Below, piece after piece: positions 12,124 to 63,034 of a DNA stretch of 64,000 nucleotides. Every line of letters begins with the position of its first letter. Position 1 is the first letter of the stretch. The notes under the pieces were generated by a model. It made no database searches. It was not told the DNA's origin and saw only the letters and a list, made by a program, of their open reading frames with translations. The position numbers and the translations under genes are program-made. This DNA is from Wenzhouxiangella sediminis (lineage in GTDB: Bacteria > Pseudomonadota > Gammaproteobacteria > Xanthomonadales > Wenzhouxiangellaceae). The stretch spans positions 1 through 64,000 of the forward strand of contig NZ_QUZK01000047.1 in the NCBI RefSeq assembly GCF_003410055.1, given 5' to 3'.

Positions 12124-12327
12124 ATGTCCGACAACACGCACAAACTGCTATCGAGCCTGGCCGAAGATCCCGAGACGCTGGAGCGATTCAAGAAGGATCC
12201 CGAAGGCGTCATGAAGGAGTACGGCGTGCCGGAAGACCACCAGAAGCTGATTCTCTCCGGCGACAAGGAGAAGCTCGCCGACGAAGCGGGGATCGATCAC
12301 AACAAGCTCCAGTTCATCATTATTTGA
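12124..12327 (+). CDS. Split-borosin RiPP precursor peptide (SonA-like, LigA-like leader)
   Basis: 67 residues. Residues about 7-55 form a helical LigA-like/borosin-binding domain (LAEDPETLERFKKDPEGVM; then YGVPEDHQKLILSGDKEKL). The C terminus (LQFIII, 62-67) is a short hydrophobic stretch ending right at the stop, as expected for a borosin core. An AAGGGAAG ribosome site precedes the ATG. The stop overlaps the start of the methyltransferase (TGATG). From memory, the Shewanella SonA precursor has the same domain layout with methylated Ile near its C terminus. The core identity and methylated positions are inference; a LigA-like enzyme subunit is unlikely because no dioxygenase is adjacent. 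Confidence 0.85.
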   Translation: MSDNTHKLLSSLAEDPETLERFKKDPEGVMKEYGVPEDHQKLILSGDKEKLADEAGIDHNKLQFIII

Positions 12328-13142
12328 TGGTGCCCGGCCGCCTGAGCGTTGTCGGTACCGGCATTCGCCCGGGCGGCCATCTCACCCGCGAAGCGCAGCA
12401 CCTGCTGCGCGGCGCCGACCGCGTCTTCACCGTGGTCGACGGCCTCACCCTCGATCGCCTGCGTGAGCTCAACGCGCGGGTCGAATCGCTCCAGGACGCC
12501 TACGCGGTCGGCCGGCGGCGCGACGACAGCTATGCCGAGATGGTGCGGCGCATCCTTGCACCGCTCGACGAAGGCGCCCATGTCTGCGCCGCCTTCTACG
12601 GCCACCCCGGCGTTTTCGTCTGGCCGGCGCACGAAGCCATCCGGCAAGCACGCGCGGCCGGGCATCGCGCCGTCATGTATCCCGGCATCTCCGCCGAGGA
12701 CTGCCTGTTCGCCGACCTGGGGCTCGACCCGGCCCTGCACGGCTGCCAGAGTTTCGAGGCCACCGATTTTCTGCTCCACGCCCGCCGCTTCGACCCCACC
12801 GCCGCGCTGATCCTCTGGCAGCCGGTCACGCTCGGCGATCTCCGCCGCGATGCATTCGAGCACGATCCGGAGTGGGTGAAGGTGCTCGCCGAGGTGCTCG
12901 CGGCCGACTACCCGGCCGACCACCCGGTGACCGTCTACGAAGCCGCGGTCTTTCCGCTCGACGAGCCCCGCAGGGAACAGGTGCCGCTGAATCGACTGCA
13001 CGAGGCGCGCTTCAGCCAGGTGTCCACCCTCTACCTGCCGCCCGCCGCGCCCCCGGCCCTGAGTGCGGAAAGACTCGAGCGCCTGGGCATCAGCGAATCC
13101 GAGCTGACCTTCGGCGCCTACCAGCTGCACCGGCGAGGCTGA
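12327..13142 (+). CDS. Borosin-type peptide alpha-N-methyltransferase (SonM/OphM-like, TP-methylase fold)
   Basis: 271 residues of tetrapyrrole-methylase fold. The SAM-site motif VVGTGIRPGGHLT (8-20), AFYGHPGVFVWP (89-100) and PGISAEDCLFADLGLDP (119-135), then GCQSFEATDFL, match borosin methyltransferases (fungal OphMA, bacterial SonM) much better than cobalamin or siroheme methylases. These enzymes transfer methyl groups from SAM to backbone amides of a peptide substrate. Here enzyme and substrate are separate genes (split borosin). ATG 12327 overlaps the precursor stop; a TTG one codon upstream is an alternative start. Confidence 0.9.
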   Translation: MVPGRLSVVGTGIRPGGHLTREAQHLLRGADRVFTVVDGLTLDRLRELNARVESLQDAYAVGRRRDDSYAEMVRRILAPLDEGAHVCAAFYGHPGVFVWPAHEAIRQARAAGHRAVMYPGISAEDCLFADLGLDPALHGCQSFEATDFLLHARRFDPTAALILWQPVTLGDLRRDAFEHDPEWVKVLAEVLAADYPADHPVTVYEAAVFPLDEPRREQVPLNRLHEARFSQVSTLYLPPAAPPALSAERLERLGISESELTFGAYQLHRRG

Positions 13143-13151
13143 GCCGGGTCC

Positions 13152-14720
13152 CTACAAGAGCCAGACGATCGGCAGTCTTGCCAGGATCGCCACGCCCATG
13201 CGTTTCCACACGCTGGTGTGCGGTTCGTGTTCGTGGCGCAGCGTGCCCGACTCGGTGCGTTCGATCCAGTACAGTCCGCCGTGGTCGTCGAGGTGCACCG
13301 AGTAGGCGCGCTCGGGCACGTCCACTGCGAAGGTCTCTTCCAGCTCGGCGGCCAGTTCCGGGCTGTCGATCAACAGGCCCATCTCGGTGTTGAGCCGCGC
13401 CGAGCGCGGGTCGAAGTTGAACGAACCCACGAACACGCGCTCGCCGTCGACCGCGAAGGTCTTGGCGTGCAGGCTCGAACCGGAACTGCCCAACGGGCCG
13501 GTCCCGCGCATCCGTTCCTGGCCCGACAGGTGCTGCATCTCGAAGAGCTTCACGCCGGCCTTCAGCAGGCGTTTGCGGTAGCGGCTGTAGCCCGAATGCA
13601 CGGCGGCGACGTCGGTGGCTTCCAGCGAGTTGGTCAGCACCACCACTTCCACGCCGCTACGGGCCAGCTCGGTGAACAGCTTCGCACCGGTGCGGGTCGG
13701 TACGAAATAGGGCGAGACCACGTACATGCGCTCTTGCGGCAGGCCGATGGTTTCCTGCAGCTGGTCGCTGAGCAGGCCCTTGGGACCGGGCTTGTCGAGA
13801 ATCTTGCTCGGGTCGTCGCTGAGCAGCTCGGCCCGGCCCCAGAGCATTTCCAGTCGGCCGTCGAGGAAGCGCTCGATGAAGCGTGAGTGCTCGAAGTTGT
13901 CCAGGTAGGCGCTCGCCGCCTCGTCGTGCTCGATGCGCGCGGCCTCGCGGCGCAGCCGGGCGATGGGATCGCCCCCGCCCGGCTCGACCAGGGTCTCGAC
14001 CGGCCAGGCCGATTCGCTGTTCCAGTAGCGGTCGAAGTCGTCGGACACTTCGTCCACGACCTGGCCGACGGCGAGCACGTCGACGTCGGCGAACAACAGT
14101 CCGGTGCCGGCGGCGAAATACTCGTCGGCAACGTTGCGCCCGCCCACGATGGTGGCGCGGTTGTCGGCGGTGAAGGCCTTGTTGTGCATGCGCCGGTTGA
14201 TGCGGCGAAAGTCGGTGAAGTAATTCACCCAGCGCGGCCAGCGCAGGGCGAAGGGATTGAACAGTCGGATCTCGATGCGCTCGTGCCGGGCCAGGGCGAG
14301 CAGCGTCTGGTCCAGGCCCTCGACCCCGTTGTCGTCGAGCAGCAGGCGCACGCGCACGCCGCGGTCGGCCGCCTGGAGCAGGGCGTGCAGCATCAGCGTG
14401 CCGGTCAGGTCGTCGCCCCAGATGTAGTACTGCACATCCAGCGTGCGCTCGGCGGCGTGGGCCAACAGGTAACGGGCGGCGAAGGCATCCAGCGGGCCAT
14501 AAAGGGGATGGATGCCGCTTTCGCCGGGGTGTTCGCTGTTCTGCTCGGCCAGCGACCGCCCCAGGCGCGTGTTGCGCGCGGCCTCGGCGGGCAGTGCCTC
14601 CGATCGCCCGGGGTTCGGACGCTCAGGCAGCCGGGGCCAGAACACCAGCGCCGCTCCCAACACGATCAGCAACAACAGCACCCGGCGCCATGGGAAGCGC
14701 TTTGGTGACGGCGCGGCCAC
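13152..14720 (-). CDS. Phospholipase D family protein (cardiolipin-synthase-like)
   Basis: 522 residues, GTG start. An N-terminal membrane anchor (about residues 12-28) precedes two PLD half-domains with the HxK motifs RMHNKAFTADNRATIVGGRN and SLHAKTFAVDGERVFVGSFN. The two HKD motifs form one active site with a phospho-histidine intermediate. Cardiolipin synthase C-like transferase or a phospholipase are both possible. It lies 36 bases downstream of the HxlR regulator gene on the same strand and may be co-transcribed; it converges on the borosin methyltransferase. Confidence 0.88.
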   Translation of the reverse strand: MAAPSPKRFPWRRVLLLLIVLGAALVFWPRLPERPNPGRSEALPAEAARNTRLGRSLAEQNSEHPGESGIHPLYGPLDAFAARYLLAHAAERTLDVQYYIWGDDLTGTLMLHALLQAADRGVRVRLLLDDNGVEGLDQTLLALARHERIEIRLFNPFALRWPRWVNYFTDFRRINRRMHNKAFTADNRATIVGGRNVADEYFAAGTGLLFADVDVLAVGQVVDEVSDDFDRYWNSESAWPVETLVEPGGGDPIARLRREAARIEHDEAASAYLDNFEHSRFIERFLDGRLEMLWGRAELLSDDPSKILDKPGPKGLLSDQLQETIGLPQERMYVVSPYFVPTRTGAKLFTELARSGVEVVVLTNSLEATDVAAVHSGYSRYRKRLLKAGVKLFEMQHLSGQERMRGTGPLGSSGSSLHAKTFAVDGERVFVGSFNFDPRSARLNTEMGLLIDSPELAAELEETFAVDVPERAYSVHLDDHGGLYWIERTESGTLRHEHEPHTSVWKRMGVAILARLPIVWLL

Positions 14721-53580: not shown

Positions 53581-54217
53581 CCTTGCCGCTGATGAAGGAC
53601 CTCCCGAATATCGCCGACAGGCGACGATCCCGAACCAACAGCAAGTCATTGACATCGAGTGAATGCTTCCATCCAGTTCAACGTCGTCCACAACGTCTGG
53701 CCCTCTGCCGCCAGCATATGTTCGAACCGGTCCAGCGCGGCAGGCTGCCAGATTGGAAGCGCCGTTGTTCACGACTACGACAGGCCCCGAAGCTTTCGCC
53801 GGCGATTGCCTTGCGCCAGGCAAAATGTTCACGTAGATTAAGGCGCAATAGACCCGCCAAGCCTCTGTGGACTTCGGTCCGCACGCTTAAATCGCGCGGG
53901 TTTTTTATTGCCGGTAGCAAGCCGCCGGGTTCTCCTGGAGCTTCCCAAGTACTTCAGGTCTCATTCGGCTGAATTCAGCTCCTGCCTGGACAGTGACTAC
54001 TGCCTGGACGCCGCGCTATGCGTGCTCACCGCAGTCGATTTTCTCAGCGGAACCTGCCCATCACCAACTACCGCAGATCGTGCTGCCCGAGAGGAGTGGG
54101 CCTGGTTCAAGGTTGATTGTTCCGCGCCACACGGGCGATGATGGGACTCACCAGAGTTTCTCAAAATTTGAGAATCCAATCGGTAGTGTGGTGGGTCTGG
54201 AAGTTTGGCAAGGGGTA
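53581..54217. other. Gene-free stretch before the second HNH gene
   Basis: Several short open frames exist on both strands but none resembles a known family. No clear tandem repeat, terminator or promoter was found. The segment may be remnant DNA of the rearrangement that left the HNH fragment; no further evidence is seen. Confidence 0.4.
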
Positions 54218-55087
54218 ATGAAAGGCGTATTCACCACAAGAGTCGTCCCGGAATATGACGACCTGCCGGAACGGCACTATCACTTCCCGCGCACCTACCT
54301 ACGCCAGGTGGAGCGCTGTATCGGCGACTGGGTGGTCTACTACGAGCCACGACGATCCAGCGGCCATCAGCCCGGCGGCCGTCAGGTCTACTTCGCCACG
54401 GCTATGGTTACCGGCGTCCGGCAGGACCCACACCGGCCCAATCACTACTACGCCGACGTTCAGGGCTACTTCGAGTTCCCCGATCCCGTCCCGTTCCGTG
54501 ACGGGCCGCACTACTATGAATCATTGCTCCGCCGCCCCGACGGTGCCACCAATAAGGGGGCTTTCGGCCGGGCTGTGCGAGGACTACCGGACGACGAATT
54601 CTGGGCCATTCTCCAAGCGGGCATCGCCTCGGACGTGTTCGATGAGGAGGCCGACAACCTCGTTGCCCAGCCCCCGCCCGAGCGAACCACCGTCGAAACC
54701 TTCCTCAACCGAAAGGTCCGCGATCCGTCATTTCGCCGTCTGGTCCGCCAGGCCTACGACCTGCGCTGCGCCGTATCCGGCCTTCGCCTGGTCAACGGCG
54801 GCGGGCGCCCCGAAGTCCAGGCGGCCCACATCATGCCGGTCGAGCACGACGGCCCGGACACCGTTCGAAACGGCGTCGCCCTGTCTGGTACAGTTCACTG
54901 GATGTTCGACCGGGGGCTCATCAGTTTTGGCGACGATGGCAGTATTCTCACCTCCCCGCACGGTCTGCCGGACGATATGGACCGGCTGATTCGGCCCGAG
55001 CGGCGGCTGCTAACTCCCGATCACCCGGCTTTCCGCCCGCATCCGGGCTATTTGGCGTGGCACCGCGACCATGTCTACAAGCGATAG
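54218..55087 (+). CDS. HNH endonuclease (HNH_2-type) upstream of the restriction gene
   Basis: 289 residues. The C-terminal HNH core is CAVSGLRLVNGGGRPEVQAA then HIMPVEHDGPDTVRNGVALS, then VHWMFDRGLISF. The N terminus MKGVFTTRVVPEYDDLPERHYHFPRTYL is typical of the group. It starts at 54218 and is followed after five bases by the restriction helicase gene, so it is probably one operon. Its role in the system (DNA cleavage) is inferred from this association. Confidence 0.82.
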   Translation: MKGVFTTRVVPEYDDLPERHYHFPRTYLRQVERCIGDWVVYYEPRRSSGHQPGGRQVYFATAMVTGVRQDPHRPNHYYADVQGYFEFPDPVPFRDGPHYYESLLRRPDGATNKGAFGRAVRGLPDDEFWAILQAGIASDVFDEEADNLVAQPPPERTTVETFLNRKVRDPSFRRLVRQAYDLRCAVSGLRLVNGGGRPEVQAAHIMPVEHDGPDTVRNGVALSGTVHWMFDRGLISFGDDGSILTSPHGLPDDMDRLIRPERRLLTPDHPAFRPHPGYLAWHRDHVYKR

Positions 55088-55092
55088 AGGCC

Positions 55093-58000
55093 ATGAGCGA
55101 AGAATTCTTCAAGAAACCCATCCTGAACTCGCCGTATGACTATCCCGGTCGCCATTGGGAGCTTGACGACAGCGGCCAGCCAACTCACAACATAAAGGAG
55201 TCACGGCGCCGCGCCGATTTCGTCACCCCCATCCCTCGCGCAAAGCGCCAGTCCGGCGGTCAGCAGGACCTGGATATCGAGTCCATATCGGACGATCAGG
55301 ACCTCTACGCTAATGCCACGATCATCAATGCCTTGCGCGATGAAGTGGATCGCTGGCGACAGCTTCCCAATCCCTCCGATTGGAAAGTAACTCCTGAAAC
55401 ACAGCGTCTGCTGCAGCACTGGCGCCACCACAAGTTCAGCGGCATCCGCCCCTTTTTCTGCCAGGTTGAGGCGGCCGAAACCGCGATCTGGCTAAGCGAG
55501 GTTGCCCCCAAGATGGGCAAATCCGGCGCGCGGTTCCTCGACCACCTGAAAGACGCCAACAATGCTGCCAATCCCGACCTCAGCCGCCTGGCGCTCAAAT
55601 TGGCCACGGGCGCCGGCAAGACCACGGTCATGGCCATGCTCATTGCCTGGCAGTGCATCAACAGCGTCCGCCACCCCACCAGCACGCGCTTTACCCGCGG
55701 GTTTTTGATTGTGACGCCGGGCATCACCATCCGGGACCGCCTGCAGGTCCTCCAGCCCAACGACCCCTACAGCTACTACCGCAGCCGCGAACTCGTGCCC
55801 AACGACATGCTGGATGAGCTCAACAAGGCGCGAATCGTAATTACCAATTACCACGCCTTCAAGCTGCGAGAGCGCATGGACTTGTCCAAGGGCGGCCGGC
55901 AGCTGCTCCAAGGGCGTGGAGGGGATCCACTGCAGACGCAGGAGTCCGAGGGCCAGATGCTGCAGCGGGTCATGCCCGAACTGATGGGCATGAAAAACAT
56001 CATGGCCATGAACGACGAGGCGCACCACTGCTATCGGGAAAAGCCGGGCGACGGCGACGAAGACAGGCTCAAGGGCGACGAGCGCAAGGAGGCTGAGAAG
56101 AACCTCGAAGCAGCCCGGCTGTGGATCAACGGGCTCGAAGCGGTCAATCGGAAGTTGGGGATCAGCCGTGTGATGGATCTGTCCGCAACGCCGTTCTTCC
56201 TCAAGGGCTCCGGGTATGTCGAGGGCACGCTTTTCCCTTGGACGATGAGCGACTTCTCGCTCATGGACGCCATCGAGTGCGGCATTGTCAAACTGCCGCG
56301 TGTCCCGGTTGCCGACAACATTCCCACCGATGACATGCCCAAGTTCCGCAACCTGTGGGAACACATTGGCACCAAGATGCCCAAGAAGGGCCGCGGCAAG
56401 GCGAAAACGCTGGACCCACAGAGCCTTCCCGACCTACTCAAGTCGGCCCTGGATGCGCTCTACGGCCACTACGCTAGCACCTATCAGCTTTGGCAACGCG
56501 AAGGCGTCAACGTCCCGCCGTGCTTCATCATCGTATGCAACAACACCGCCACGTCAAAGCTCGTATACGACTACATCGCCGGTTACGAAAAAGAAAATGA
56601 AGATGGCACGATAACCATCCAAGAGGGCCATCTTGAACTGTTTCGCAACTACGACGAATACGGCGAACCCCTGGCGCGTCCTCGCACCCTGCTGATCGAC
56701 AGCGAACAGCTCGAATCGGGAGATGCACTGGATCTGAAGTTTCGCAAGATGGCGGCAGACGAAATCGAGCGGTTCAAGGAAGAAATCAGAGAGCGCACCA
56801 AGGATCAGCGAGCGGCGGACAACCTCACTGACGCCGATCTGCTGCGAGAGGTTATGAACACCGTCGGTAAGGAAGGCCGCCTGGGTGAATCCATCCGATG
56901 CGTGGTGTCAGTATCAATGCTCACCGAGGGTTGGGACGCCAATACGGTCACCCACGTGCTAGGCGTACGCGCCTTTGGCACCCAGCTGCTGTGCGAACAG
57001 GTTATCGGCCGCGCACTGCGGCGTCAGTCCTATGATCTCAACGAGGACGACCGCTTCAATGTCGAATACGCGGATGTGCTGGGTATACCCTTTGATTTCA
57101 CAGCCAAGCCGGTGGTCGCGCCGCCTCAGCCGCCCCGTGAAACCATCCAGGTTCGCGCCGTGCGCCCCGAACGCGATCACCTCGAAATCCGCTTCCCGCG
57201 TGTCGAGGGCTATCGCACTGAATTGCCAGGAGAGCGCCTCGTGGCTGAATTCACCGAAGACTCGAAGATGGTGATTACGCCTGCTGACGTCGGCCCGACC
57301 AAAACCCGTAATGAGGGCATCATCGGAGAGGGCATCGACCTGGATCTCAAGCACCTCAAGGACATGCGCAAATCCACGCTGGTCTATCATCTGACCGAGC
57401 GTTTGCTCATGACCAAGTGGCGCGATCCGGGCGATGAGCCGGAGCTGCACCTATTCGGCCAGCTCAAGCGAATCACCCGCCAATGGCTGGACCAGTGCCT
57501 GGAATGCAAGGGCGGCACCTATCCGGCCCAGCTTATGTATCAGGATCTAGCCGAGCGCGCCTGCGTGCGCATCACCAACGCCATCACGCGCCATGAACTC
57601 AAAAAGGACGGTAGCCTGGTACGCGTCGTGCTCGATCCCTACAACCCGGAAGAAACCACCAGCCACGTTAATTTCAACACATCCAGCACTGAGCGCTGGG
57701 CAACAAGCCCTGAACGCTGCCACGTCAACTTCGCCATCCTCGATTCCGGCTGGGAAGGCGAATTCTGCCGCGTGCTTGAATCCCATCCGCGCGTGCTCCG
57801 GTACGTCAAGAATCACAACCTCGGTCTGGAAGTGCCGTATCGCTGCGGCTCGGAAAGCCGCACCTATATCCCCGATTTCATCGTCGACATCGACGACGGC
57901 CGAGGCGAGGACGATCCGCTCCATCTGATTGTGGAAATCAAGGGCTTCCGTGGTGAGGACGTCAAAGACAAGCACACAACCATGGAGAATTACTGGATTC

Positions 58001-58146
58001 CCGGGGTGAACAACCTGGGCCGCTTCGGTCGCTGGGATTTCGTCGAACTCAGCGACGTCTGGGAGATGGAATCCGATCTTGCCGACAAGCTGGAGCAGGA
58101 AGTGGACGAAATAATTCAGGCCAAATCGCGGGAGATTCCGGCGTGA
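55093..58146 (+). CDS. Type III-like restriction helicase-nuclease (BPTD_3080-type Res)
   Basis: 1017 residues. Superfamily 2 helicase motifs: GAGKTT (173-178), DEAH (308-311), SATPFF (364-369), and QVIGRALRR (636-644). The C-terminal nuclease domain has EGEFCRVL, then PDFIV (Asp928) and EIKGF (Glu948, Lys950), a PD-(D/E)XK core. It is laid out as the Res subunit of type III R-M systems. The start at 55093 is preceded by GAGG. The methyltransferase gene 1 kb downstream (59144) is the apparent Mod partner, with an NYN gene between. Confidence 0.85.
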   Translation: MSEEFFKKPILNSPYDYPGRHWELDDSGQPTHNIKESRRRADFVTPIPRAKRQSGGQQDLDIESISDDQDLYANATIINALRDEVDRWRQLPNPSDWKVTPETQRLLQHWRHHKFSGIRPFFCQVEAAETAIWLSEVAPKMGKSGARFLDHLKDANNAANPDLSRLALKLATGAGKTTVMAMLIAWQCINSVRHPTSTRFTRGFLIVTPGITIRDRLQVLQPNDPYSYYRSRELVPNDMLDELNKARIVITNYHAFKLRERMDLSKGGRQLLQGRGGDPLQTQESEGQMLQRVMPELMGMKNIMAMNDEAHHCYREKPGDGDEDRLKGDERKEAEKNLEAARLWINGLEAVNRKLGISRVMDLSATPFFLKGSGYVEGTLFPWTMSDFSLMDAIECGIVKLPRVPVADNIPTDDMPKFRNLWEHIGTKMPKKGRGKAKTLDPQSLPDLLKSALDALYGHYASTYQLWQREGVNVPPCFIIVCNNTATSKLVYDYIAGYEKENEDGTITIQEGHLELFRNYDEYGEPLARPRTLLIDSEQLESGDALDLKFRKMAADEIERFKEEIRERTKDQRAADNLTDADLLREVMNTVGKEGRLGESIRCVVSVSMLTEGWDANTVTHVLGVRAFGTQLLCEQVIGRALRRQSYDLNEDDRFNVEYADVLGIPFDFTAKPVVAPPQPPRETIQVRAVRPERDHLEIRFPRVEGYRTELPGERLVAEFTEDSKMVITPADVGPTKTRNEGIIGEGIDLDLKHLKDMRKSTLVYHLTERLLMTKWRDPGDEPELHLFGQLKRITRQWLDQCLECKGGTYPAQLMYQDLAERACVRITNAITRHELKKDGSLVRVVLDPYNPEETTSHVNFNTSSTERWATSPERCHVNFAILDSGWEGEFCRVLESHPRVLRYVKNHNLGLEVPYRCGSESRTYIPDFIVDIDDGRGEDDPLHLIVEIKGFRGEDVKDKHTTMENYWIPGVNNLGRFGRWDFVELSDVWEMESDLADKLEQEVDEIIQAKSREIPA

Positions 58147-58197
58147 TCGCCACAGATCGGCGCCGGAATCCTAGCGCCCGTCTGCGGTCAACCACGG

Positions 58198-58225
58198 TTG
58201 ACGCCGTACACGTTTTGTGTAAAAT
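58198..58225 (+). promoter_or_regulatory. Strong candidate promoter for the NYN gene
   Basis: TTGACG (58198-58203), 16-base spacer, TAAAAT (58220-58225), an excellent sigma-70 match by eye. Transcription would start near 58232, giving an ~87-nt leader. Confidence 0.75.
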
Positions 58226-58278
58226 TCGTTCCACATCCGCCCCTTGGCAGTACGCCCGCTCACCCATCCAGAGCGTGT

Positions 58279-58318
58279 GCCGAACCCTCGGGGCTTTTCT
58301 TTTTCTGGGGGGCGCCCC
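58279..58318 (+). promoter_or_regulatory. Leader hairpins before the NYN start codon (attenuator/translation control)
   Basis: GCCGA-ACCC-TCGGGGC at 58279-58294 is followed by TTTTCTTTTTC, resembling a short intrinsic terminator. GGGGCGCCCC (58309-58318) is a perfect palindrome that abuts the ATG and includes the likely ribosome site. Both could limit expression of the nuclease. Confidence 0.45.
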
Positions 58319-59116
58319 ATGCGGATGAGGCGCATCGCAATCCTGATCGACGGCGGCTATTTCCTCAAGCGGCTGCCCAAGCTCGTTGCGCCCCAGTTCT
58401 GCTCCACGCCCCAGCAGATCGCCGATTCGGCCCGCTACCTCTGCAAGCGGCACGTTCAGCGCCTGGTCGGCCTTGACGCGGATGCTGACGAAGACGGCCG
58501 CTGGCTCGACCACGTCTACCGGCTGTTCTACTACGACGCCACGCCATTTGACGGCAAGAGCCACCACCCACTGAAGAACCAGCCGATCGATTTCGGGAAG
58601 TCGGAGGTCGCTAAGTCCCGCCGCGAGCTCTTTACGCAGCTCCGCCGGAAGCGCAAATTTGCCCTCCGGCTCGGCCACGTCAACAAGGAATCCAATTGGC
58701 AGATTGACCCCCGGCTAACCAAAGATCTGATCAAGATCCGTAAGTGGGCAGATCACATCCAGGCCATTCTGGATCATCCCGAGGCACCCCCTGAGCTGCC
58801 CGAGAACGAGAGCCGAGAGTTCCAGAATCTAATAGAGCGCTGGCAGGCCCTAGAAGAGCGCAACGTCCGAATCGGTCTTCGGCAGAAAGGCGTTGACATG
58901 CGCATCGGCCTGGATATCGCCTCGATCACCCTTAAGCAACAGGCCGATACCATGATCCTGGTCACCGGCGATAGCGACTTTGTGCCGGCTGCCAAACTGG
59001 CGCGACGCGAGGGGATTGAGTTTCTGCTGGACCCGCTATGGCAGAAAGTCAGCGACCAGCTCTACGAGCACGTAGACGGAATCATCTCCATTTACTCGCA
59101 ACCCGAATCCACTTAA
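58319..59116 (+). CDS. NYN-domain (LabA/DUF88-type) nuclease
   Basis: 265 residues. NYN/PIN-like acidic residues: Asp11 in AILIDGGYFLK, Asp193 in KGVDMRIGLDI and Asp218/Asp220 in TGDSDFVPAAKL, typical of the LabA/DUF88 family, which includes RNases and PIN-like nucleases. It has its own promoter and structured leader and lies between the restriction and methyltransferase genes. Start at 58319 with GGGGGG six bases before; a second ATG at 58325 is possible. Its function in the R-M system is not known. Confidence 0.82.
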   Translation: MRMRRIAILIDGGYFLKRLPKLVAPQFCSTPQQIADSARYLCKRHVQRLVGLDADADEDGRWLDHVYRLFYYDATPFDGKSHHPLKNQPIDFGKSEVAKSRRELFTQLRRKRKFALRLGHVNKESNWQIDPRLTKDLIKIRKWADHIQAILDHPEAPPELPENESREFQNLIERWQALEERNVRIGLRQKGVDMRIGLDIASITLKQQADTMILVTGDSDFVPAAKLARREGIEFLLDPLWQKVSDQLYEHVDGIISIYSQPEST

Positions 59117-59143
59117 CTAGCTTTAGTCAGGCAAACATTTCAT

Positions 59144-62014
59144 ATGGCAGGAAAGAAGAAGTCCAAAGTGAAAAAGTCCGTCGAGGCTATCAAACACGAC
59201 GAGGCCAATCGCGTCAATATCCCGACGGCCGAGTACCAGTCCGTCATGGCCGACGAGGACAAAACGCCGATCCAAGTCGCCTACGATCGCCGCAACCGGG
59301 ATCTGGACCCGCAACTAGTCTGGCGCGGCAAGGACCAGCAGAACTGGACAGACCTGGTAGTCAATGCCCCGCCGCTCTACATCCAGGAGAAGATCCACCC
59401 CAAAGTCCTGATCGATGACCTGGTGCAGCGCAGCCAGGAGAACGAAGCGGAGGATGCAGACCAGACGGATTTGTTTGCAGACTTCAACGGCCTGCCCGAC
59501 GAAGACGCCCGCACCGAGTTCTACCAGCACGCAAGCCGCTGGCAGAACCGAATGATTCTGGGTGATTCGTTGCAGGTCATGGCCTCACTGGCCGAACGTG
59601 AGGGTCTCAGAGGAAAAGTCCAGTGCATCTACATTGATCCGCCCTACGGGATCAAGTTCAACTCCAACTTCCAGTGGTCAACTACTAGCCGGGCTGTCCA
59701 AGACGGAAAGCCTGATCAAATAACCCGTGAGCCGGAACAGGTCAAAGCCTTTCGCGATACTTGGCGTGATGGAATCCATTCGTATCTGACTTACCTTCGT
59801 GACCGTTTGACCGTTGCACGAGATTTGCTAACGGAATCAGGCTCCATCTTTGTGCAGATTGGCGATGAGAATGTGCATCGAGTTAGGGCTTTAATGGATG
59901 AAATTCTTGGGGATGAGAATTTTGTCGCAAACATCTATTTTCGAAAGACCGGCGGTCACAGCGACGACAATATTGGTTCCGCGCTCGACATTATTCTCTG
60001 GTATTCAAAGAAGTCGAAAGCCTTTAAATTTAGGAAGTTGTTCTCTTTGGAGGAGTTGCCGCCAATAGACGAAAAATATTATGTGAACGTCTTGACGCCT
60101 GACGGAAATCGGCGCCGAATGACACTGGACGAGCGCCTTCGGAAAAAGGCCCTCCCGGATGGGTCTGAGGTATTCAGATATGGACCAATAACCGGTCAGG
60201 GAGCATCTCAAAATGACGAAGACATGCAGTTTCGAGGGCGGATTTTTCCTAAGAAAAAGAATCGACATTGGTCCACAAGCAATCACGGAATGTATCGAGT
60301 TGCAAAAACTGGACGGCTCTTAACGATTGGTAATGATCTAGCGTTCGACCTACGCTGGAAAGAGGTTCCTAAGAACCTCGGAAACGTTTGGCAAGATACA
60401 CAGTCCGGTGGCTTTGGTTCTGAGAAGGTGTACGTAGTAGAAACTACGCCAACTGTTATAGAGCGCTGCGTTTTGATGACAACAGATCCCGGCGACCTGG
60501 TGCTAGATCCAACGTGCGGATCAGGAACGACAGCGCATGTTGCTGAACAGTGGGGCCGGCGTTGGGTCGCCATTGATACTTCCCGTGTGGCACTGGCGTT
60601 GGCCCGCGCCCGCATCATGGGTTCTCGTTACCCGTTCTACTTGCTGGCCGACTCGCCGGAAGGCCAGAGCAAGGAGTCCGAACTTAGTCGAACCGCACCG
60701 TCTACCCAGCCCACGGGCGGCCGGATTAGTCACGGTTTTGTCTATCAGCGCGTACCGCACATCACGCTCAAGGCTATCGCCGACAACACAGAAATCGATG
60801 TCATCTGGGAGCGATTTGAGGAAGACCTAGGGCCCCTTCGCGAAAGTCTGACGGAGGCTATACCCGCTCGCTGGCTGGATTCCTACCGCAACGAACAGCA
60901 ACACACCGCCGACATGCCACAGGAAATCCAGGAGTGGGAGGTGCCGCGAGAGTATCCCGACGACTGGCCCGCGGCGACCAAGGAATTGCACGAACGGTTC
61001 TGGGAGTTGCTTACCGAACGCCAGAGGGAGATCGACGCTTCAATCGCCGCGCGCGCCGATCAGAAATATCTTTACGACAAGCCCTACGAAGACAAGAGCA
61101 AGGTCCGAGTCGCCGGTCCCTTCACCGTCGAAAGCCTCTCGCCGCACCGGGTGCTGGGCGTCGACGAGGACGACGAGCTGATCGACCCGCTAGAAGACGA
61201 CAAGGGTAAGTACGGCGAGGAACGCGATTTCGTCCAGATGATCCTGGAAAACCTTAAGACCACCGGCGTCCAGCAGGCGCACAAGGAAGACCGGATCAGT
61301 TTCACCGCCCTTAAACCCTGGCCCGGTGACCTCATCTGCGCCGAAGGCCACTATATGGAAGGCGGCGAAGGCGGCGAAGGCGGCGAAGGCGGCAGCGAAA
61401 AGCGAGCCGCCATCTTCATCGGCCCGGAATTCGGCACCGTCTCCCGCCCCGACCTGGTCGCCGCCGCCCGCGAAGCCGCTGACGCCGGCTTCGATGTCTT
61501 GATCGCCTGCGCCTTCAACTACGAAGCCCACGCCTCCGAATTCCACAAACTCGGCCGAATCCCGGTCCTCAAGGCCCGCATGAATGCGGACCTGCACATG
61601 GCCGAGGACCTCAAAAACACCGGCAAGGGCAACCTATTCGTCATCTTCGGCGAACCTGATATCGATATCCTCGACGCCGAAGACGACCAGATCCAGGTCA
61701 AAGTCAATGGCGTCGATGTGTTCCACCCCAGCACCGGCGAAGTCCGCTCCGACGGCCCCGAAGGCATCGCCTGCTGGTTCGTCGACACCGACTACAACGA
61801 AGAAAGCTTCTTTGTCCGCCACGCTTACTTCCTCGGCGCCAACGACCCCTACAACGCCCTGAAAACCACCCTCAAGGCGGAAATCGACCAGGAAGCCTGG
61901 GAAACCCTACACAGCGACACCTCTCGCCCGTTCCCCAAGCCAGAATCCGGCCGCATCGCAGTCAAGGTCATTAACCACCTTGGTGATGAAGTGATGAAGG
62001 TGTTCAGGGTATGA
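59144..62014 (+). CDS. Type III-like DNA methyltransferase (Mod, beta-class N6-adenine)
   Basis: 956 residues. DPPY catalytic motif at 165-168 and SAM-binding DPTCGSGTTA at 455-464, in the order DPPY-then-FxGxG of beta-class Mod proteins, with a ~290-residue stretch between that would hold the target recognition domain. Residues about 690-956 are a large C-terminal extension unlike typical Mod. A GGEGG tract (four 9-bp GAAGGCGGC units, 61358-61393) is in frame within it. It is paired with the Res gene upstream. The bases between about 59700 and 60550 look more AT-rich than the flanks. Confidence 0.85.
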   Translation: MAGKKKSKVKKSVEAIKHDEANRVNIPTAEYQSVMADEDKTPIQVAYDRRNRDLDPQLVWRGKDQQNWTDLVVNAPPLYIQEKIHPKVLIDDLVQRSQENEAEDADQTDLFADFNGLPDEDARTEFYQHASRWQNRMILGDSLQVMASLAEREGLRGKVQCIYIDPPYGIKFNSNFQWSTTSRAVQDGKPDQITREPEQVKAFRDTWRDGIHSYLTYLRDRLTVARDLLTESGSIFVQIGDENVHRVRALMDEILGDENFVANIYFRKTGGHSDDNIGSALDIILWYSKKSKAFKFRKLFSLEELPPIDEKYYVNVLTPDGNRRRMTLDERLRKKALPDGSEVFRYGPITGQGASQNDEDMQFRGRIFPKKKNRHWSTSNHGMYRVAKTGRLLTIGNDLAFDLRWKEVPKNLGNVWQDTQSGGFGSEKVYVVETTPTVIERCVLMTTDPGDLVLDPTCGSGTTAHVAEQWGRRWVAIDTSRVALALARARIMGSRYPFYLLADSPEGQSKESELSRTAPSTQPTGGRISHGFVYQRVPHITLKAIADNTEIDVIWERFEEDLGPLRESLTEAIPARWLDSYRNEQQHTADMPQEIQEWEVPREYPDDWPAATKELHERFWELLTERQREIDASIAARADQKYLYDKPYEDKSKVRVAGPFTVESLSPHRVLGVDEDDELIDPLEDDKGKYGEERDFVQMILENLKTTGVQQAHKEDRISFTALKPWPGDLICAEGHYMEGGEGGEGGEGGSEKRAAIFIGPEFGTVSRPDLVAAAREAADAGFDVLIACAFNYEAHASEFHKLGRIPVLKARMNADLHMAEDLKNTGKGNLFVIFGEPDIDILDAEDDQIQVKVNGVDVFHPSTGEVRSDGPEGIACWFVDTDYNEESFFVRHAYFLGANDPYNALKTTLKAEIDQEAWETLHSDTSRPFPKPESGRIAVKVINHLGDEVMKVFRV
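61358..61393 (+). repeat. In-frame 9-bp tandem repeat in the methyltransferase gene
   Basis: Four exact copies of GAAGGCGGC encode a Glu-Gly-Gly run in the C-terminal part of the methyltransferase. Because the unit is a multiple of three, copy changes would alter length but not frame. Confidence 0.85.
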
Positions 62015-62035
62015 TGGTCTCGCTAGGAGGACGCA

Positions 62036-63034
62036 ATGGCCAGCGCTAATCAATTGAAAGCATTGCTTAAATCGCACGTAGAAGGCGACGAAGAGCGATT
62101 TTATTCCATCGCTATGCAGCTGGCAGCCCACGAAGCAAAAATTGGGCATGGCAAGCTGGCTGAGGAGTTGCGCCGGCTAGTGGATCAAGCCAAGGCGAGT
62201 CGTGGGCTTCCCAAAAAGGGGCACGAGAAGACGATACCGATTGGACGGCCACGCGGTGAATTGGCCGGCCTACTTAACGCATCATTTCCCAAAAACCGTC
62301 TGGGCGACATGGTGCTCGACCAGCACCTCCATTTTCAACTCAAGCGGGTAATTCGCGAACAACGTCAGGCTCAGCGGTTGCTTGCCCATGGCCTGTCGCC
62401 CAGACGGAAGCTGTTGCTGGTCGGCTGCCCTGGTACCGGCAAGACATTGACCGCTTCGGTGCTCGCCGGTGAGCTTGGTTTACCGCTGTTTCAAGTCCGG
62501 CTGGATGGGCTGATTACTAAATTTATGGGCGAGACGGCCGCTAAATTGCGCCAAGTGTTTGAGGCAACCGACCGGACCCGAGGCGTGTACTTCTTTGATG
62601 AGGTAGATGCAATCGGCTCGCAGCGCGGTCTTGCAAACGACGTCGGGGAGATCAGACGGATTCTCAATAGTTTTCTGCAGATGATCGAGCAGGACAATTC
62701 ACACAGTCTGATTGTGGCAGCAACCAATCACCCAGAAATTTTGGATCATGCGCTTTTCCGCCGTTTTGACGACGTTCTCCAATACGAGTTGCCGGATGAG
62801 GTACGAATCGCTTCGGTACTCAAGTCCCGGCTCGGAGAAGTGGCTATGAAAGGCGTATCTTGGCAGCGACTCGCCACTGGCGCTGTTGGCTTGAGCTATG
62901 CTGAAGTAGTTCGTGCTTGTGACGAAACCTTGAAGGAAGCCCTGATTGAGGGACGTCATAAGGTTGCTGAGACAGACATTAAGCAGACGCTGGAGGAGAG
63001 ACAGCAGATCTCGGAACGTCTAAAGTCGCGATGA
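62036..63034 (+). CDS. ietA: AAA+ ATPase, IetA-like
   Basis: 332 residues. Walker A GCPGTGKT (130-137), Walker B VYFFDEVDAIG (184-194), a sensor-1 VAATNHPE and RRFDD mark an AAA+ ATPase of the FtsH/spastin-like type. It is followed 27 bases later by a subtilisin-like protease gene. This AAA ATPase plus S8 protease pair is the arrangement of the IetAS defence system. Assignment to that system is by gene order and domain type. The start at 62036 follows GGAGG. Confidence 0.8.
   Translation: MASANQLKALLKSHVEGDEERFYSIAMQLAAHEAKIGHGKLAEELRRLVDQAKASRGLPKKGHEKTIPIGRPRGELAGLLNASFPKNRLGDMVLDQHLHFQLKRVIREQRQAQRLLAHGLSPRRKLLLVGCPGTGKTLTASVLAGELGLPLFQVRLDGLITKFMGETAAKLRQVFEATDRTRGVYFFDEVDAIGSQRGLANDVGEIRRILNSFLQMIEQDNSHSLIVAATNHPEILDHALFRRFDDVLQYELPDEVRIASVLKSRLGEVAMKGVSWQRLATGAVGLSYAEVVRACDETLKEALIEGRHKVAETDIKQTLEERQQISERLKSR

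Follow-up and report, generated by a model that had tools for sequence, protein, structure and literature searches.

A predicted split borosin pair in an operon with a GGDEF protein and an LAAO-like flavin oxidase in Wenzhouxiangella sediminis

The stretch of DNA analyzed here (the window) comprises 64,000 nucleotides of a 3.5 Mb genome assembled in 54 contigs. Four plus-strand genes lie in it head to tail, encoding a GGDEF protein, a flavin oxidase resembling L-amino acid oxidases (LAAOs), a short peptide resembling a borosin precursor, and a borosin-type methyltransferase (MT) (Table 1). The GGDEF and oxidase genes overlap in ATGA, 46 bases separate the oxidase gene from the precursor gene, and the precursor stop codon shares one base with the MT start codon within TGATG, an overlap that had been reported by the first-pass annotation of this DNA. 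That annotation had read the locus as a split borosin; its precursor/MT pair, which forms the 3′ half of the operon, is supported here, but the GGDEF gene and the LAAO-like flavoenzyme with which the operon begins had been missed. On its 3′ side, the MT gene is followed by a phospholipase D (PLD)-like gene running in the opposite direction (13152–14720).

Table 1. Genes and features of the operon, with window positions.
Feature	Position	Strand	Basis
Predicted diguanylate cyclase, 7TMR-DISMED2 – 7TMR-DISM_7TM – GGDEF, 608 aa	8740..10566	+	ATG 8740, alternative start GTG 8758; Pfam
Flavin amine oxidase, LAAO family, 504 aa	10563..12077	+	PDB 8jhe E=1.5e-73; alignments of 10 and of 9
Predicted split borosin precursor, 67 aa, leader (borosin-binding domain) about 1–56, C-terminal core	12124..12327	+	SonA match; 9 genomes
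Putative core codons, hexapeptide LQFIII	12307..12324	+	SonA alignment; pattern kept in nine genomes
Predicted borosin backbone α-N-methyltransferase, 271 aa	12327..13142	+	SonM E=8.8e-52; invariant catalytic residues; tree

The MT resembles borosin enzymes of both bacterial and fungal origin. Besides SonM (E=8.8e-52), it matches the fungal MroMA, dbOphM, and OphMA (3e-45 to 6e-43), the two kinds of relatives against which the first-pass annotation had proposed to search, and all 25 PDB matches listed at E ≤ 0.01 are borosin MTs by name. The residues Y58, R67, Y71, and Y93 of SonM, tested by mutation in PMC8429565, correspond to Y59, R65, Y69, and Y91 in the window’s MT and are invariant in 9/9 orthologues; the motifs by which the enzyme had initially been recognized, YGHPGVF and PGISAEDCLFADLGLDP, are both found in it. 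The PF00590 domain would also suit a tetrapyrrole or other TP-methylase standing next to a small ORF that arose by chance, and clustering with cobalamin or siroheme methylases had been named at the outset as the outcome that would speak against a borosin. This identity is ruled out for the MT by model scores, PDB matches, and phylogeny, and the reading as a whole is extremely improbable. The NCBIfam corrin MT models score 20.1 bits against a cut-off of 391 and 13.4 against 163, and the YabN model 43.7 against 525. In the tree, which contains one non-borosin PF00590 protein, the window’s MT falls in a clade with 100/99 support near SonM, while that protein, the only non-borosin PF00590 protein of the genome, sits on a very long outgroup branch.

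The short ORF upstream of the MT begins with ATG behind an SD-like GGGAAG and closes with KLQFIII directly before TGA, in agreement with the LQFIII end described earlier. The borosin-binding leader that had been proposed for its 67-residue product finds support in homology to SonA (phmmer E=7.3e-06), and SonA residues 1–64 match a profile of 18 relatives at 6e-16; the Pfam LigA model scores 23.7 bits, slightly below its cut-off of 25.3. Eight further genomes carry, at the corresponding position, an ORF of 67–68 aa whose C-terminus is of the same type, and compared with its nearest relative the precursor has a dN of 0.036 and a dS of 0.443 (dN/dS about 0.08); it is under purifying selection. 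Because the ORF is kept in place in eight more genomes and dN is low relative to dS, it is not a chance ORF, which further argues against a TP-methylase with an incidental neighbor. Other database matches were rejected: those to ubiquitin are polyubiquitin totals, with single repeats at i-Evalues of 54–55 in the two matches listed, and those to IniB, TOMM, and NHLP all lie below cut-off.

At the stop codon, the nine precursors from nine genomes share the pattern [LMVC][QRN][FL][IVL][IV][ILVF], always with a hydrophobic tetrapeptide directly before the stop, and their last four residues have mean Kyte–Doolittle values of 3.65 to 4.15, versus −3.12 to 0.2 in 11 paralogous precursors from this bacterial family, which have different ends, often TNSTIKAY-like. 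A hydrophobic C-terminal core, a predicted borosin-binding-domain (BBD) leader, and separate, adjacent precursor and MT genes, the latter with SonM/OphMA homology and the catalytic tyrosines and arginine, are the features of a split borosin in the type IV sense (PMC8429565). From these homologies, 12124–13142 is almost certainly a split borosin pair. SonM methylates SonA at L63 and I65 (PMC11285071), and the SonA register would place methylation of the window’s peptide at F64 and I66, an uncertain assignment that may shift by one residue in either direction. The LigA-like peptide could instead have a regulatory role, binding to the MT or the oxidase as a subunit, much as BBD-like domains cap dioxygenase active sites in trans or in cis (PMC8429565), but such a subunit would hardly call for the hydrophobic C-terminus of fixed length that extends past the leader, in the SonA core register, in 9/9 cases, and we consider this role unlikely.

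Precursor, MT, and oxidase occur together in nine genomes from two genera of one family, with MT identities to the window’s MT of 51–94%, and a GGDEF gene lies upstream of this set at 9/9 loci. The outer neighbors behave differently. PLD, HxlR, and M24 peptidase genes flank the operon only in the nearest kin (L032, L033, and L042; L and G numbers denote loci and genomes), with M24 missing from L032, where the contig is short, and none of the three is found in the five other oxidase loci, one of which (L034) covers just 3.4 kb past the MT. Since they are restricted to nearest kin, these genes were rejected as cluster members and left out of the operon. Oxidase homologues at E ≤ 1e-30 were found in 10/151 genomes of the order, the same ten being 10/43 genomes of the family. 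Nine of them lie in the borosin operon. The remaining one, found in G022, also has a GGDEF gene upstream, and its borosin context is undecidable, the contig ending 33 bases beyond the oxidase match; elsewhere in that assembly there is neither an MT nor a precursor match.

The closest solved relatives of the oxidase are LAAOs, the best being HTAncLAAO2 (8jhe, 1.5e-73). By analogy with other LAAOs, R67 of that enzyme was assigned to recognition of the substrate carboxyl group and K322 to O2 (PMC10517122, whose residue numbers exceed the chain index of 8jhe by two). The window’s protein belongs to the amine oxidase fold family and has a predicted FAD site; the redox lysine is kept in 10/10 operon-type oxidases (K317 in the window), as are the positions of W482 and W520. 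The carboxylate-binding arginine is replaced by Phe in 10/10 (F64 in the window), W220 by Ser or Ala in 10/10, and F225 by Gln or Leu. MAFFT gaps 8jhe at the arginine column; when 8jhe, 8t8a, and 7eih are aligned by phmmer, Phe64 pairs with Arg. Three more distant relatives elsewhere (L134, L135, and L149) retain the arginine, and no borosin MT or precursor match occurs in the 14–15 kb fetched around each of them. At E ≤ 1e-40, relatives were found in 2/368 other genomes of the class and in 1/298 others of the phylum, two samples that overlap.

Because Arg has given way to Phe while the redox lysine is retained, we infer that the substrate carries no free carboxylate at this position; it is probably peptidyl. 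The enzyme would then be redox-competent, its pocket would be opened, and it would lack a residue to hold a free carboxylate. Its operon linkage suggests that it acts on this very peptide, a proposal that we hold to be slightly better supported than its negation. An ordinary oxidase of small amines or amino acids, making H2O2 or removing an amine and merely co-expressed with the borosin pair, would fit the LAAO fold family and the conserved FAD and redox-lysine positions. It would leave unexplained why Phe stands in 10/10 where the aligned PDB relatives and the three other relatives have Arg, and why, among the 151 genomes, no homologue at E ≤ 1e-30 lies outside this gene set, the truncated G022 locus being undecidable; we regard an ordinary oxidase as improbable.

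The first gene of the operon has an intact GGDEF motif in 9/9 orthologous loci, as expected for an active diguanylate cyclase, and DISM_7TM is present in all nine proteins by Pfam. Within the order, GGDEF genes also accompany borosin MTs outside the oxidase operons. The order has 89 MT matches in 69/151 genomes. Two fragments were dropped, one in G097:C160 and one in G008, where the contig ends inside the MT so that its upstream genes are out of view, leaving 87 MT places, among which L059 and L110 hold identical MTs from a single genome. A same-strand GGDEF domain lies within 3.5 kb of the MT at 82/87 places; the five others are L114 and L115, where contigs end near the MT, L101, and both L112 MTs. 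From a density of 1164 GGDEF domains in 136.9 Mb (41 genomes), the chance per place is 0.029, and about 2.6 of the 87 places would be linked by chance versus 82 observed, with the caveat that the loci are related and not independent. Pfam confirms GGDEF in 81/81 proteins scanned, those of 80 linked places plus L032, with TPR_12 in at least 24 and DISM_7TM in nine, which are those of the oxidase operons. In three loci, GGDEF and MT are fused in one uninterrupted frame (L106:3760-6324, L116:3712-6264, and L118:3767-6304). Outside the order, the link is weak: a GGDEF gene was found at 1/8 MT places of the class, and at 0/5 loci from other groups (L037–L041, of which L041 may belong to any order).

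As the GGDEF link recurs, some functional coupling of the peptide to c-di-GMP is likely. The cyclase could be a local regulator only, converting an outside cue into c-di-GMP and thereby controlling the pathway, with the peptide secreted as an ordinary product that is not its ligand. Such a role would suit 7TMR-DISMED2, for which carbohydrate sensing is predicted (PMC8846402), and the sensor type does vary among borosin groups, but the recurrent linkage and the GGDEF–MT fusions hint at more than co-regulation; we rate local regulation as a serious contender, somewhat short of even. That the peptide is itself the ligand of the cyclase is doubtful, the predicted carbohydrate-sensing function of DISMED2 counting against it.

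Phylogenetic analysis of the MTs bears on the history of this link. The tree has 93 rows, 23 open forks, and a midpoint root on one very long branch, that of a single non-borosin PF00590 outgroup row. The nine oxidase-operon MTs form one clade (100/99). Its sister consists of seven rows without GGDEF, from Acidobacteriota, Chloroflexota, and Alphaproteobacteria, together with L041 and, from this order, the two L112 MTs; these sixteen are joined at 100/99, and SonM and L067 join them next (97/87). The large groups of MTs with GGDEF upstream and with GGDEF downstream lie elsewhere in the tree, and the oxidase-operon loci differ from them in gene order and sensor domain. Since this MT clade stands apart from both large GGDEF groups and comes with another sensor domain, the GGDEF–borosin link may have originated at least twice. 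The link could also be old, with the sister lineages having lost it and a different sensor having been used when it was rebuilt, as the position of L067, a GGDEF-linked MT, beside SonM would allow.

In general terms, the operon’s activity can be rationalized as follows. The MT would bind the borosin-binding leader of the precursor and, as SonM does, N-methylate amides in the C-terminal hydrophobic stretch. No dedicated protease or transporter/exporter is seen in the operon, so release and export would fall to host enzymes: an unlinked host protease would free a C-terminal peptide of about 6–10 residues. Having lost both the arginine and a bulky pocket tryptophan, the oxidase would accept a larger substrate without a free α-carboxylate there. 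A backbone N-methyl amide is no amine, and the enzyme would therefore need a released amine end; the simplest substrate would be the amine end of the freed peptide, converted into an imine or keto end. The membrane diguanylate cyclase would link the peptide to c-di-GMP, either as a receptor of the product or as a controller of its synthesis. Taken as a whole, this mechanism is the one we favor, with moderate confidence: the products of the four genes would make a small backbone-N-methylated peptide and probably also put it to use. Its boldest extension is rather unlikely, namely that an N-methylated oligopeptide oxidized by an LAAO-type flavoenzyme acts as a dedicated signal, between cells or in the periplasm, to its own cyclase, and that the borosins of the order are c-di-GMP-coupled signals, perhaps of multiple origins.

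Bacterial split borosins are already known (PMC8429565), and the closest counterpart is SonA/SonM of Shewanella oneidensis, the type IV system described there, which shares with the window’s pair a separate BBD-leader precursor of about 70 aa beside an MT of 263–271 aa, the same catalytic residues, and an alignable core register. Unlike SonA, the window’s core has no polar tail and runs right up to the stop codon, and unlike the SonA/SonM locus, the window’s operon also encodes a GGDEF protein and an oxidase resembling LAAOs; the words ‘oxidase’, ‘GGDEF’, and ‘diguanylate’ are all absent from the main text of PMC8429565. The fused fungal borosins of the OphMA type share, as judged by sequence, the MT fold and the catalysis, whereas in the window MT and precursor are encoded by separate genes. 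Similarly, HTAncLAAO2 and bacterial LAAOs (PMC10517122; 8jhe, 8t8a, and 7eih) share with the oxidase the fold family, the redox lysine, W482, and W520, and differ from it at the positions of Arg67, W220, and F225 and in the borosin operon. In other GGDEF-associated borosins, the MT likewise has a GGDEF protein as its neighbor or fusion partner, but the loci compared have no oxidase, their GGDEF proteins lack DISM_7TM matches (at least 24/81 of all proteins scanned have TPR_12), and their precursor ends and MT clade differ. Borosin types V–X were reportedly defined in Imani 2022 and Cho 2022.

A literature search that did not include those two papers returned no publication that treats a RiPP precursor peptide together with a flavin amine oxidase and the N-terminus, and a search for N-methylated peptide RiPPs with c-di-GMP likewise returned none. 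To our knowledge, bacterial split borosins have no established function. For borosins with GGDEF, the search without Imani 2022 and Cho 2022 found a single publication, PMC11395268, which names a GGDEF domain in the legend of its Figure 1, a borosin scheme, and whose available portions neither mention ‘oxidase’ nor give the borosin type; for Wenzhouxiangella with RiPP, it found only publications seemingly unrelated by title. The association of an oxidase and a c-di-GMP enzyme with a borosin pair in one operon points to peptide chemistry of a new sort and to a connection with bacterial signaling that may exist. Given how tight and repeated the link to a second-messenger enzyme is, fusions included, the role of these peptides is directly testable, and the flavoenzyme would constitute a new tailoring step on N-methylated peptides, of use for making stable, membrane-permeable peptides.

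Several other loci were observed along the way. Four genomes of the same genus (G003, G006, G020, and G023), all small or incomplete, have neither a GGDEF nor a borosin MT match, and in family f9 the leader profile search found no precursor for MT–GGDEF pairs (e.g., L091, L098, L104, and L151). The borosin MT match of L087 (G115:C2:54611-55390) contains one in-frame TGA. L112 (G118:C52:3829-5445) carries tandem borosin MT domains, apparently in one 545-aa frame; a precursor-like leader precedes them, and the locus has no GGDEF. Farther along the window, 53993–63034 is a probable defence island with HNH, ResIII helicase-like, type III DNA methyltransferase, and IetA-like AAA ATPase genes. The same genome also has a second split borosin locus (L048, G000:C32:40137-40853), with a precursor ending in HLINSTIHAHD, a TPR-GGDEF protein, and an MT, all encoded in one direction and without an oxidase.
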